Below, piece by piece: positions 14,774 to 22,372 of a stretch of DNA of 64,000 nt; within the stretch, counting starts at the first letter, position 1, and every line of letters starts with the position of its first letter. This stretch comes from Polynucleobacter sp. Its GTDB lineage: Bacteria; Pseudomonadota; Gammaproteobacteria; Burkholderiales; Burkholderiaceae. The DNA lies in assembly GCF_030693775.1 (NCBI RefSeq), contig NZ_JAUXZY010000004.1, positions 434,001 through 498,000 of the forward strand, read 5' to 3'. The notes beneath the pieces were generated by a model, which saw only the letters and a program-made list of their open reading frames with translations, did not search any database and had not been told where the DNA came from. Position numbers and translations under genes: made by a program.

Positions 14774-14920
14774 ATGGACGACTTTAATTTCTATCGCTTT
14801 ATTGCTTACCTGATTGGCTTTGCCATAGCGGCGATGCTGCTGGTGAAGTTGTACTTGATTTATGCCTTTCGAAAACTAGAAAAAGAAGAACGGCAACGAC
14901 AGGAAGAGCAGCCTAAATAG
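14774..14920 (+). CDS. Single-helix membrane microprotein
   Basis: 48 codons, ATG at 14774 and TAG at 14918. The protein has one membrane helix (YRFIAYLIGFAIAAMLLVKL, about residues 7-26) and a strongly charged tail (RKLEKEERQRQEEQ), predicted cytosolic. No strong SD is seen before it. It lies between pirin and the puc control region, about 234 bp before pucB. Codon use and the clean helix-plus-tail design argue for a real gene. Function unknown; it may or may not belong with the light-harvesting genes. Confidence 0.55.
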   Translation: MDDFNFYRFIAYLIGFAIAAMLLVKLYLIYAFRKLEKEERQRQEEQPK

Positions 14921-15024: not shown

Positions 15025-15068
15025 TGTAAATATATTGTGACATTCGTCTATGTAAATTTTAATTTACT
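15025..15068 (+). promoter_or_regulatory. Tandem PpsR/CrtJ-type sites before pucB
   Basis: Site 1 is TGT-N12-ACA at 15025-15042, an exact match to the PpsR/CrtJ consensus. Site 2 is TGT-N12-ACT at 15051-15068, one base off, and its core GTAAATTTTAATTTAC is a perfect inverted repeat (7-bp arms, TT spacer). Exactly 8 bp separate the sites, the spacing known for cooperative CrtJ binding at bchC of Rhodobacter. A TTGACT hexamer at 15005-15010 suggests that the -10 region lies within site 1, so binding would block transcription. Repression of puc by a PpsR homologue under oxygen or light is inference; no ppsR gene is in the window. Confidence 0.65.
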
Positions 15069-15070
15069 TA

Positions 15071-15108
15071 GTCGGATGTATTTATGGGTACCCATAAATA
15101 AATCCGAC
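15071..15108 (+). repeat. 38-bp near-perfect palindrome in the pucB leader
   Basis: Arms of 19 bases (GTCGGATGTATTTATGGGT at 15071-15089 and its complement at 15090-15108) pair with a single mismatch around the centre GGGTACCC. It begins 2 bp after the second PpsR-type site and ends 46 bp before the pucB ATG. It could be an operator for a dimeric regulator or, if transcribed, a stable 5' hairpin protecting the puc messenger. It lacks a following T-run, so it is not a simple terminator. Confidence 0.75.
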
Positions 15109-15316: not shown

Positions 15317-15520
15317 ATGATCTACGGAAAAATGTGGTGCGTAGTTAAACCAACGGTTGGTCTTCCTCTTATCATCGGGGCAGTAGCTGTCGGTTCATTT
15401 GCCGTTCACACAATGATTTTGAACAATACAACTTGGGTCAAAGCATTTTTGAATGGTAATGCCAGCGTACAAGCTGGCGCTCCAGCAGCCGCACCCGCGG
15501 CGCCTGTGGCGAAAAAGTAG
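15317..15520 (+). CDS. pucA: LH2 light-harvesting protein, alpha subunit, B800-820-type residues
   Basis: 67 residues. Residues 1-48 align without gaps to R. acidophilus LH2 alpha: GKMWCVVKP (Trp7), His31 (B850 ligand) in FAVHTMIL and TTW at 38-40. Positions 44-45, Tyr-Trp in B800-850 complexes, are Phe44-Leu45 here, the change known from B800-820 (LH3) antennas; loss of these hydrogen bonds blue-shifts the B850 band. A flexible Ala/Pro-rich tail ending in KK extends beyond residue 50. TAAGGAG overlaps the pucB stop and sets the start. The absorption prediction is inference. Confidence 0.93.
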   Translation: MIYGKMWCVVKPTVGLPLIIGAVAVGSFAVHTMILNNTTWVKAFLNGNASVQAGAPAAAPAAPVAKK

Positions 15521-15612: not shown

Positions 15613-16995
15613 ATGAAACGCATTAGTCAAAAATTAATTGATACGTGGGTTCACTTCGGACCCCGCTTCTTGCCGTTCGCCGACGTGGCGACCGATGATC
15701 TCCCACTCTCGCGCTTGTTGCGTTTATCTTTATTCCAGGTCTCGGTTGGGATCATGTTGGTTTTGCTGGTTGGAACCCTCAACCGCGTGATGATTGTTGA
15801 GCTAAAAGTTCCAGCATCGCTGGTGGCGATCATGATCTCTTTGCCTTTGCTGTTTGCCCCTTTTCGCGCACTGATTGGCTACCGGTCCGATACCCATCGA
15901 TCCCATCTGGGTTGGCGCCGAGTACCCTACATGTGGATGGGCACGATGTTGCAATTTGGTGGGCTATCGATCATGCCGTTTGCGCTCCTGGTTTTGTCTG
16001 GAGCGGGGCAGTCTAGTAATGCACCTGCTTGGATAGGGCAATTGGGCGCTGCAGTGGCTTTTCTGCTCGTCGGCGCGGGCGTGCACATTACACAAACCGT
16101 TGGATTGGCTTTGGCCAATGATCTCGTTAAAGAAGAGTCGCAACCTAAAGTAGTTGGATTAATGTATGTGATGATGCTCGTCGGCATGATTGCCAGCGCA
16201 CTGATTTTTGGTGAGCTTTTATCCGAGTACAGCCCAGGGCGTTTAATTCAGGTGATTCAAGGCGCCGCTATTGTGATCATGGTGCTCAATGTGGTGGCAT
16301 TGTGGAAACAAGAGTGCCGCGATCGCGCCAAAGTAGCGGCGCGGGAAGTAAATGTTAGTTTTTCAGAATCGTGGGGTATCTTTTGCAAAGGCAATCATGC
16401 GATTCGGCGTTTGCTTGCGGTGGGTCTGGGGACCATGGCATTCACGATGGAAGATATTTTGCTCGAGCCCTACGGCGGCGAAATACTGAATATGAGCGTA
16501 GGTGCAACCACCTCGCTGACCGCAACCCTGGCCATTGGTGGACTATTTGGTTTTGCCTTGGCATCGCATGTCTTGGGCAAAGGGTACGATGCATTTCGGA
16601 TGGCAATGAATGGCGCATTTGTTGGCCTACCCGCATTTTTAGCGGTGATTTTGGCCGCCCCCTTGGGGTCGCCCACTTTGTTTGCAGTTGGCATCCTATT
16701 AATTGGCTTTGGTAGTGGCTTATTTGGGCATGGAACGCTCACCGCCACCATGCGCCTAGCCCCCAAAAAACAAAGTGGCTTAGCTTTGGGTGCCTGGGGC
16801 GCAGTTCAGGCGACGGCAGCTGGCACCGCAATTGCCTTGGGCGGGGTGATTCGGGACCTCGCTAGCCCGCTTGCAGGGGCTGCAGGCGGCTATATTGTTG
16901 TGTATATTATTGAAATAGTCTTATTACTGGCAGCCATTGTGGTCATGTTGCCGCTGATAAAAAGCAGGTTTAATCTGGCCACAAACACCGCTTAG
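15613..16995 (+). CDS. pucC: PucC-family antenna assembly protein (BCD-type MFS)
   Basis: 460 residues, twelve membrane helices. The family hallmark is plain: FAPFRALIGYRSDTHRS then GWRRVPYMWMG, and later GVHITQTVGLALANDL. PucC/LhaA/BchG-partner proteins of this bacteriochlorophyll delivery family are needed for assembly of LH complexes, probably by handing over pigment or holding the peptides. Its position 92 bp after pucA makes it PucC for LH2 rather than LhaA for LH1. The SD is weak, and a terminator-like hairpin precedes it, suggesting low expression. A 30-residue membrane protein follows. Confidence 0.9.
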   Translation: MKRISQKLIDTWVHFGPRFLPFADVATDDLPLSRLLRLSLFQVSVGIMLVLLVGTLNRVMIVELKVPASLVAIMISLPLLFAPFRALIGYRSDTHRSHLGWRRVPYMWMGTMLQFGGLSIMPFALLVLSGAGQSSNAPAWIGQLGAAVAFLLVGAGVHITQTVGLALANDLVKEESQPKVVGLMYVMMLVGMIASALIFGELLSEYSPGRLIQVIQGAAIVIMVLNVVALWKQECRDRAKVAAREVNVSFSESWGIFCKGNHAIRRLLAVGLGTMAFTMEDILLEPYGGEILNMSVGATTSLTATLAIGGLFGFALASHVLGKGYDAFRMAMNGAFVGLPAFLAVILAAPLGSPTLFAVGILLIGFGSGLFGHGTLTATMRLAPKKQSGLALGAWGAVQATAAGTAIALGGVIRDLASPLAGAAGGYIVVYIIEIVLLLAAIVVMLPLIKSRFNLATNTA

Positions 16996-17300: not shown

Positions 17301-17717
17301 ATGCCAACGCCCTCATCTGATTTAGTTGAACTGACCTACGTCAGCGAGCCTGCTGAGGAAATGTCTTTTTTGGGATTAATGCGCCTTCTCTATCACTCCT
17401 ATTTACGCAATCAAGCGCTTGGCATTACTGGGGTTTTGATTTTCGAAGACCAGCGCTTTGGCCAAGTGATCGAAGGTCCAGCGAACTCGATCGATCGTCT
17501 GTGGGATAAGATCAAAAAAGACGATCGCCATAAAAACGTTAAGCTCATTAACCGCAAAACCATTGAACGTCGCAGTTTTCTCAAGTGGACCATGATCTTT
17601 CAGGGGAACGAAGAAATTGCTAATCGCCTTCCTGAGGTGAAGGCTGCAGTAGACCATGGCGACTTTCCAAGCGACCACCCCTTGCTCGTTGCCCTGCGTC
17701 ACGAAATCCAGCGTTAA
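17301..17717 (+). CDS. Short BLUF-domain blue-light sensor
   Basis: 138 residues, almost all BLUF fold. The photocycle residues are all present: Tyr13 (LTYVS), Asn37 (LRNQ), Gln55 (FGQ), Trp96 and Met98 (KWTM). DDRH near residue 75 is the usual conserved patch. FAD is bound non-covalently, and blue light rearranges Gln-Tyr hydrogen bonds. There is no output domain, so it must signal through a partner, as PapB, BlrB or PixD do. It begins 105 bp after the puc terminator. A regulatory link to antenna genes, as in AppA-PpsR, is inference. Its 3' end is 9 bp from the convergent patB-like gene. Confidence 0.92.
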   Translation: MPTPSSDLVELTYVSEPAEEMSFLGLMRLLYHSYLRNQALGITGVLIFEDQRFGQVIEGPANSIDRLWDKIKKDDRHKNVKLINRKTIERRSFLKWTMIFQGNEEIANRLPEVKAAVDHGDFPSDHPLLVALRHEIQR

Positions 17718-21067: not shown

Positions 21068-22372
21068 GTGAACACAGCCCTTTATTGGTTTCGGTCCGAC
21101 CTGCGGCTGATAGATAACCCCAACTTTTTATCTGCATGCAAGGCCTCGGACGCTCTGCTCCCGATCTATGTGCATGCCCCACAAGAATCGCTCATCTGGG
21201 GCTTTGAGCGAATCAGCGAACACCGCCAGCAGTTTTTGTGCGATGCCCTGCGCGATTTGCAGCAGCAGCTAGAGCAGCTTGGATCAGATCTACTGGAATT
21301 GCAAGTGCCCCAGGCTAGCTCCAGCGGCGCCGTCGATCTCGTCGTCAATCTAGCGCATCACCTTGGTATTCAAACGATCTACTGTGAAGTGATTGAGGCA
21401 CCCGAGGAAATGCAGGCGCTGACTGCATTAAGGCAGGCCGGACTCACCGTACATGCCGATCTCGAATCAACCATGATTGCCATGCGTGATTTACCATTCG
21501 CCCCCGATGCAATGCCAGATCAATTTACGCAGTTTCGGAACAAGATTGAAAAAGCAAAATACCTTTTCGCCGAACCAGTTCTAGCCCCAAGCCATATTCC
21601 ACCACTGCCAAATGATTTCAAGCGATCGGAGTTGATTTCAGGTGTGCAGACTCCAATTCAACCCACGGGTCATCCACACAGCTCCTTCCCGCATTATCTT
21701 GACGCCTACCGTGGCGGTACAAGTACTGCAGTAGCCCATCTAAAGCAGTATCTAGGGCGCGCACTACCGCATTCGTATAAGGCAACCCGGAATCAATTGC
21801 ATGGTCTTGATTATTCGAGCAAGCTGTCCCCATGGCTTGCCTTGGGTTGTATTTCAGCGCGCAGTATCATGCGGGAGCTAAAGCAGTTTGAGTCAGAGCA
21901 GGGCGCCAATGAGGGAAGTTATTGGCTTTGGTTTGAGCTGCTCTGGCGTGATTATTTCCGCCTACTCCATCTGAAATATGGAAAACAGCTGTATTGTGCA
22001 AGCGGTTTAAATCAATCGGATAAGCCTATCCACAATGCCCGCGGTTTTGAGCATTGGTGCTCTGGCACGACGGGAGAGTCGATTGTCGATGCGGGAATGC
22101 GTGAGCTTAAAGCAACGGGCTATCTATCGAATCGATTACGCCAAGTAGTAGCCAGTTATCTTATTTATGATTTGCATTCGGACTGGCGTGCAGGCGCCGC
22201 TTGGTTTGAGGCTCAGTTACTTGATTACGATGTGTATAGCAATCAAGGCAATTGGCTCTACATTGCTGGCAGGGGCACTGATCCGCGGGGTGGGCGACGC
22301 TTTAATCCGCAAAAACAAGCCCAAGACCACGATGCCAATGGCAGCTATCGCGCATTGTGGTTAAGCGACTGA
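21068..22372 (+). CDS. Cryptochrome DASH / photolyase
   Basis: 434 residues, GTG start (the MNTALYWFRSDLRL motif begins the family). An N-terminal Rossmann photolyase domain is followed by a helical FAD domain. FELLWRDYFRLLHLKYG and NQGNWLYIAGRGTDPRGG are diagnostic of the DASH class, as against CPD class I photolyases. DASH proteins repair cyclobutane dimers in single-stranded DNA with blue light and may also signal. Its 3' end overlaps the convergent HDAC-like gene by 28 bp. It is the second flavin photoreceptor-type gene in the window after the BLUF gene. Confidence 0.9.
   Translation: MNTALYWFRSDLRLIDNPNFLSACKASDALLPIYVHAPQESLIWGFERISEHRQQFLCDALRDLQQQLEQLGSDLLELQVPQASSSGAVDLVVNLAHHLGIQTIYCEVIEAPEEMQALTALRQAGLTVHADLESTMIAMRDLPFAPDAMPDQFTQFRNKIEKAKYLFAEPVLAPSHIPPLPNDFKRSELISGVQTPIQPTGHPHSSFPHYLDAYRGGTSTAVAHLKQYLGRALPHSYKATRNQLHGLDYSSKLSPWLALGCISARSIMRELKQFESEQGANEGSYWLWFELLWRDYFRLLHLKYGKQLYCASGLNQSDKPIHNARGFEHWCSGTTGESIVDAGMRELKATGYLSNRLRQVVASYLIYDLHSDWRAGAAWFEAQLLDYDVYSNQGNWLYIAGRGTDPRGGRRFNPQKQAQDHDANGSYRALWLSD

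Follow-up and report, generated by a model that had tools for sequence, protein, structure and literature searches.

Which wavelength does an LH2 antenna absorb when its alpha chain carries Phe44-Leu45, the pair best known as the mark of the low-light isoform of this complex? The question is raised by a puc locus in the window, by which we mean the whole stretch of 64,000 nucleotides of Polynucleobacter DNA that was analysed. The initial annotation had taken the pair as the pattern of B800-820 antennas and had placed the band, bluer than that of typical LH2, at about 820 nm, which it proposed might suit a freshwater niche. The answer depends on what else the alpha chain carries, on whether the genome encodes a second LH2, and on what has been reported for related antennas.

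The puc operon and its copy number

The locus encodes pucB, pucA and pucC in that order (Table 1), and the pucA reading frame begins with ATG and has its stop within the span. It has the features of an LH2 operon, namely LHC-domain alpha and beta chains, the histidine ligands of B850 and an adjoining pucC, which also follows pucA in all 66 Polynucleobacter puc loci. The key positions of PucA are occupied by Trp7, Ser27, His31, Thr38-Thr39-Trp40, Val41, Phe44 and Leu45, and those of PucB by His21, Gln29 (ten residues before His39, where Arg is usual), His39 and Trp48. The identification of PucA originally made from Trp7, His31, the TTW motif at 38-40 and Phe44-Leu45 is confirmed by these residue positions and by the PF00556 match, and the gap-free alignment claimed with it was recovered in local alignments against solved LH2 alpha chains, where it extends from residue 3 to about residue 49.

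Table 1. Operon genes and predicted upstream sites at the puc locus (positions in the window).
Feature	Position	Strand	Evidence
pucB, LH2 beta chain, 50 aa	15155..15307	+	PF00556 E 8.6e-9; nearest solved chain 7zdi_B E 5e-19
pucA, LH2 alpha chain, 67 aa	15317..15520	+	PF00556 E 3.6e-9; nearest solved chain 7ze3_A (PucD-LH2) E 1.4e-15
pucC, PUCC family LH2 assembly/transport protein	15613..16995	+	PF03209 E 3e-151
Predicted PpsR/CrtJ-like site, exact TGTN12ACA, upstream of pucB	15025..15042	+	motif search
Predicted second PpsR/CrtJ-like site, one mismatch (TGTN12ACT), 26 b downstream of first	15051..15068	+	motif search

A search of the whole assembly (1.94 Mb in 5 contigs, 94.5% complete) for the LHC family returned four matches, all above the cut-off: pucBA itself and, on contig 2, a single beta/alpha pair. 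Directly after the latter lie ORFs that we take, by eye, to be PufL and the start of PufM, and the pair was therefore assigned to LH1. A second pucBA with Tyr-Trp, which the initial annotation had named as a finding against its reading if expressed dominantly, was looked for and not found, either in the assembly, where at 94.5% completeness the result is strong though not final, or in the genus genomes searched. LHC genes were present in 85 of 186 Polynucleobacter genomes and PucA in 66 of the 186, one copy each (E 1e-5); the one-contig genome of relative G013 contains a single PucA, identical to that of the window. The co-occurring B850-type LH2 expected beside an LH3 was thus missing from the assembly, with its one pucBA, and from the 66 genus genomes. 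Since a B850-type copy was not found, the pucBA of the window probably serves these species as their standing LH2 and not as a low-light substitute for a B850 form. Co-occurrence is not a strict mark of LH3, because Rfx. antarcticus, a member of the same order, has a sole LH3 (819 nm) encoded by a single pucBA and likewise lacks aromatic H-bond donors at 44-45; it differs in being an anaerobic purple bacterium with Phe44-Phe45, and the comparison is confined to positions 44-45 (PMC5374385). The LH3 of Pseudohaliea rubra (804/821 nm) belongs, as a further parallel, to an aerobic phototroph and is described as a blue-shifted antenna made whatever the light and oxygen level, but this organism is a marine gammaproteobacterium and is likened here by description, not by sequence (PMC3679898).

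Tuning of the B850-type ring

Neither aromatic donor to the C3-acetyl groups is present in PucA, so that the loss of the Tyr-Trp pair proposed at the outset stands, and the side chains at 41, 44 and 45 would together offer no H-bond to the C3-acetyls of the B850-type bacteriochlorophylls. In a comparison of nine LH2 structures (PMC9618040), absorption lies at about 850 nm where two C3-acetyl H-bonds are made, at about 825 nm with one and at 803 nm with none. In Rbl. acidophilus 7050 the Phe44-Leu45 complex, absorbing at 820 nm, keeps a single C3-acetyl bond from alpha-Tyr41 (PMC9618040), the residue to which the remaining LH3 bond is also assigned elsewhere (PMC9897067). PucD of Rps. palustris absorbs at 803 nm without H-bonds (PMC9618040), and its chain (7ze3) reads Val41-Phe44-Met45 in our alignment; section 7 of the same source gives Met-44 and Phe-45 for PucD, while the deposited chain 7ze3_A reads Phe44-Met45. 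The absence of donors alone does not set the wavelength, as the Y44F/Y45L double mutant of Rba. sphaeroides, without a C3 donor, absorbs at 826 nm (PMC8775250); the LH2 alpha chain of this species has Leu41 and Ser27 in the alignment. Finally, the Phe44-Phe45 antenna of Rfx. antarcticus has its band at 819 nm (PMC5374385).

LH2 complexes solved or mutated in other bacteria suggest how such a shift might arise: without aromatic donors the acetyl groups would not be held in the ring plane, the site energy would rise and the band would move to the blue. Energy would nevertheless pass downhill to LH1, and less of it would return. A reduction of back-transfer from the core has been described for blue-shifted LH2, with a slower forward transfer as the price (PMC8775250).

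The closest measured relative found is Limnohabitans planktonicus, with bands at 799 and 813 nm (Kasalicky et al. 2018, tabulated in PMC12654162). It too belongs to the freshwater Burkholderiales, and PucA P0097 of a Limnohabitans sp. MAG reads S27-V41-F44-L45, but it represents another genus and its puc genes are said to lie within the photosynthesis cluster (PMC12654162), whereas those of the window are on a different contig than the LH1 genes. By analogy with this 813 nm band and with the donor-poor precedents at 803, 819 and 826 nm, we consider it likely that the sole LH2 found in the genome, with an alpha chain lacking a donor at 41, 44 and 45, has a ring absorbing at about 813 nm (range 803-826 nm) and not at 850 nm, the 813 nm value being that of another genus and the likeness running through the PucA of the Limnohabitans sp. 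MAG, not through that of L. planktonicus. Further points against this estimate are beta-Trp48 as a possible donor and the fact that P. duraquae has never been seen pigmented. A literature search on Polynucleobacter antennas, with most subscription papers beyond reach, yielded no LH2 spectrum that we recognised as coming from this genus.

A band bluer than 850 nm, as first proposed, is therefore likely, given the missing donors, the lack of a second pucBA and the pattern shared by relatives, but a position near 820 nm does not follow, since Val41 replaces the Tyr41 of LH3. The Phe-Leu pair is indeed present as in LH3; what its equation with a B800-820 pattern overlooked is Tyr41, and the precedents span 803 (PucD), 813, 819 and 826 nm. 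Because the Tyr41 donor is absent, the antenna is predicted from its residues to be a blue-shifted LH2 and not a strict LH3. Blue-shifted antennas are already known elsewhere; the pattern seen here is shared by all the genus relatives read that bear an LH2.

It seems unlikely that the complex is in effect a B800-820 antenna with its band at 818-828 nm. In favour of such a reading are Phe44-Leu45, shared with the LH3 of Rbl. acidophilus 7050 (1IJD), the Rba. sphaeroides Y44F/Y45L mutant, at 826 nm with Ser27 kept (PMC8775250), and the 819 nm of Rfx. antarcticus, with Phe44-Phe45 in the same order (PMC5374385). Yet the substitute donor of the 7050 complex, Tyr41, is replaced by Val both in the window and in each of the 66 genus relatives, and L. 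planktonicus is tabulated at 813 nm (PMC12654162). The 7050 complex also differs in being a low-light alternative LH2, the pucBA of the window being the only set found.

We regard as improbable an antenna like LH4 or PucD, in which no H-bonds are made and both bands fuse near 803 nm. PucA resembles PucD-LH2 (7ZE3) in that alpha residues 41, 44 and 45 (V41-F44-L45) provide no donor to the C3-acetyls, and 7ze3_A, a V41-F44-M45 chain without H-bonds from an 803 nm complex (PMC9618040), is its top-scoring solved alpha chain. Against this, L. planktonicus has two distinct peaks, at 799 and 813 nm (PMC12654162). The two chains also differ in the alignment, with Met45 and Val27 in PucD and Leu45 and Ser27 in the window, where Ser27 is the residue fixed in the genus. 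In Rba. sphaeroides LH2, Ser27 forms a bond to a keto group of the ring.

Conservation and predicted regulation of the locus

The alignment of PucA across relatives, suggested at the outset as a check, gave Ser27-Val41-Phe44-Leu45 in all 66 PucA-bearing genomes of the 186 from Polynucleobacter. Phe44 is encoded by TTT in 47 and TTC in 19 of these relatives, and Leu45 by TTA in 47, TTG in 17, CTG in 1 and CTA in 1; fixed in spite of differing codons, the pair is not there by chance. The 65 PucA rows that are full length at the N-terminus comprise 27 distinct sequences over residues 1-47. With 23 of these 47 residues the same in every row, the conservation of 44-45 is real but not exceptional. 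The Phe44-Leu45 form is thus the only one in each Polynucleobacter genome read that bears an LH2, and the rescue donor of LH3, Tyr41, is absent too.

Beyond the genus, the best 120 of 678 database matches to PucA carried FL (113) or YL (7) at 44-45, and together with 112 further listed matches of a second search (771 matches) the count was 212 FL, 19 YL, 1 FV and no YW (n=232). Genome loci (34) gave 33 FL and 1 YL. A search with an LH2 chain of another type returned 159 matches, and the best 120, less 3 already known, read FL 79, YY 9, YW 8, FF 7, FY 5, YL 4, YM 2, FW 2 and FI 1 (117 chains), the use of an FL query overstating FL. Phe-Leu as a rarity can be ruled out, the pair being ordinary among environmental LH2 alpha chains. 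With the pair in place and Tyr41 absent, genome-based 850 nm labels for such lake bacteria are likely wrong; B-800-850 is the name that many of the matching chains have from their source.

In a sample of Burkholderiales, 30 of 399 genomes had a match (31 matches). Twenty-nine loci were read, with the second G815 copy left out and L186 illegible, and the 28 legible ones besides the window comprised 23 FL, 2 YH, 1 YY, 1 FM, 1 FY and 0 YW. Within the window's own family a match occurred in 12 of 398 sampled genomes, all of them Polynucleobacter (1 of 25 genera). Loci L034-L067 overlap the genomes of the genus survey (e.g. L043/G102, L045/G021, L046/G010), and counts from the two sets are not independent. 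On a tree built from PucC (115 rows, 103 of them unique) the 44-45 pair had to change 5 times, which is not less often than with shuffled labels, and many of the deep forks of this tree were weak, so an ancestral Phe-Leu is neither supported nor denied by it.

Upstream of pucB, matches to TGTN12ACA, the PpsR/CrtJ consensus, were found in 62 of 62 genus regions, compared with 394 of 6400 control windows taken from these loci; the regions counted were those of at least 200 b, from 62 of the 64 loci with a usable pucB. Two exact sites occurred in 33 of the 62, spaced 26 b apart each time. A PpsR-CrtJ gene (TIGR02040, 396 bits) lies on contig 2, the contig of the LH1 genes. The conserved PpsR-like sites and the encoded PpsR-CrtJ suggest that certain conditions of light or oxygen probably lead to repression of puc. 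Such repression may, as we infer, lie behind the lack of pigment in cultured P. duraquae (PMC5018217).

P. duraquae MWH-MoK4, in which a photosynthesis cluster is present and pigment is reported as never seen in culture (PMC5018217), might suggest an operon in decay or little used, from which no antenna is made. We think this very improbable: pucBAC is intact, amino acids are fixed over 66 genomes while codons vary, and all 62 loci tested have PpsR-like sites, all of which argues for an operon that is maintained and regulated.

Several other elements lie nearby. Between the PpsR-like sites and pucB is a perfect 20-b palindrome (15080-15099), whose near-exact copies (0-2 mismatches) are confined to the window's genome and to those of four close relatives. 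A 48-aa ORF upstream of pucB (14774-14920) was considered as an LH2-associated chain and rejected, having no Pfam match and strong matches limited to the closest kin (L034 and 5 of the 66 genus loci). Just after pucC is a BLUF blue-light sensor gene (17301-17717; PF04940, E 2.2e-26). It was dismissed as a general puc regulator because it adjoins puc only in the window, G013 and G130, the match in G003 being 3.3 kb off on the other side; in this survey 9 of 66 loci, the window's own included, spanned less than 5 kb, and absence there carries no weight. A gene of the DNA photolyase/cryptochrome family (21068-22372; PF03441, PF00875) lies 4 kb downstream of pucC.

The beta chain and the B800 site

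That some other donor, such as beta-Trp48, returns the band to near 850 nm is hardly credible: Trp does occupy His+9 in 63 of 63 genus PucB and beta-Trp is the donor in Phs. molischianum (PMC9618040), but the PucD beta chain (7ze3) likewise ends SPWL and yet makes no H-bond to the ring (PMC9618040), and we found no relative of the same type reported at 850 nm.

PucB departs from better-known antennas at the B800 site. In Rba. sphaeroides, beta-Arg30, at His-10, H-bonds the C3-acetyl of B800, a contact worth about 10 nm (PMC8775250). At this position the window has Gln29, and each of the 63 PucB extracted from genus loci has Gln too (three loci yielded no PucB). In the combined set of loci, beta-Gln was always paired with an alpha chain starting MIYG (119 rows), whereas none of the five beta-Arg rows had this start (two unreadable loci were dropped). 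As the rows overlap and are related, beta-Gln and the MIYG start are one linked trait, not 119 events.

A tentative extension, less likely than not, is that the MIYGK-type LH2 of freshwater Burkholderiales constitutes a separate spectral class, intermediate between LH3 and LH4 and distinguished by the lack of a C3-acetyl donor on the B850-type ring, by the change of beta-Arg(-10) to Gln with a remodelled alpha N-terminus (Ile2-Tyr3), and by its role as the sole standing LH2; much aerobic phototrophy in lakes would then run on an antenna of about 813 nm without a solved structure. Such chains make up a series given by nature (Val41, with Phe or Tyr at 44, Leu45 and Ser27 kept) in which C3-acetyl H-bonds could be separated from other causes of colour tuning. 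Gln29 may or may not still donate an H-bond to B800. If the PucB of L. planktonicus is alike, its tabulated 799 nm band (PMC12654162) suggests by analogy that B800 would be hardly displaced.
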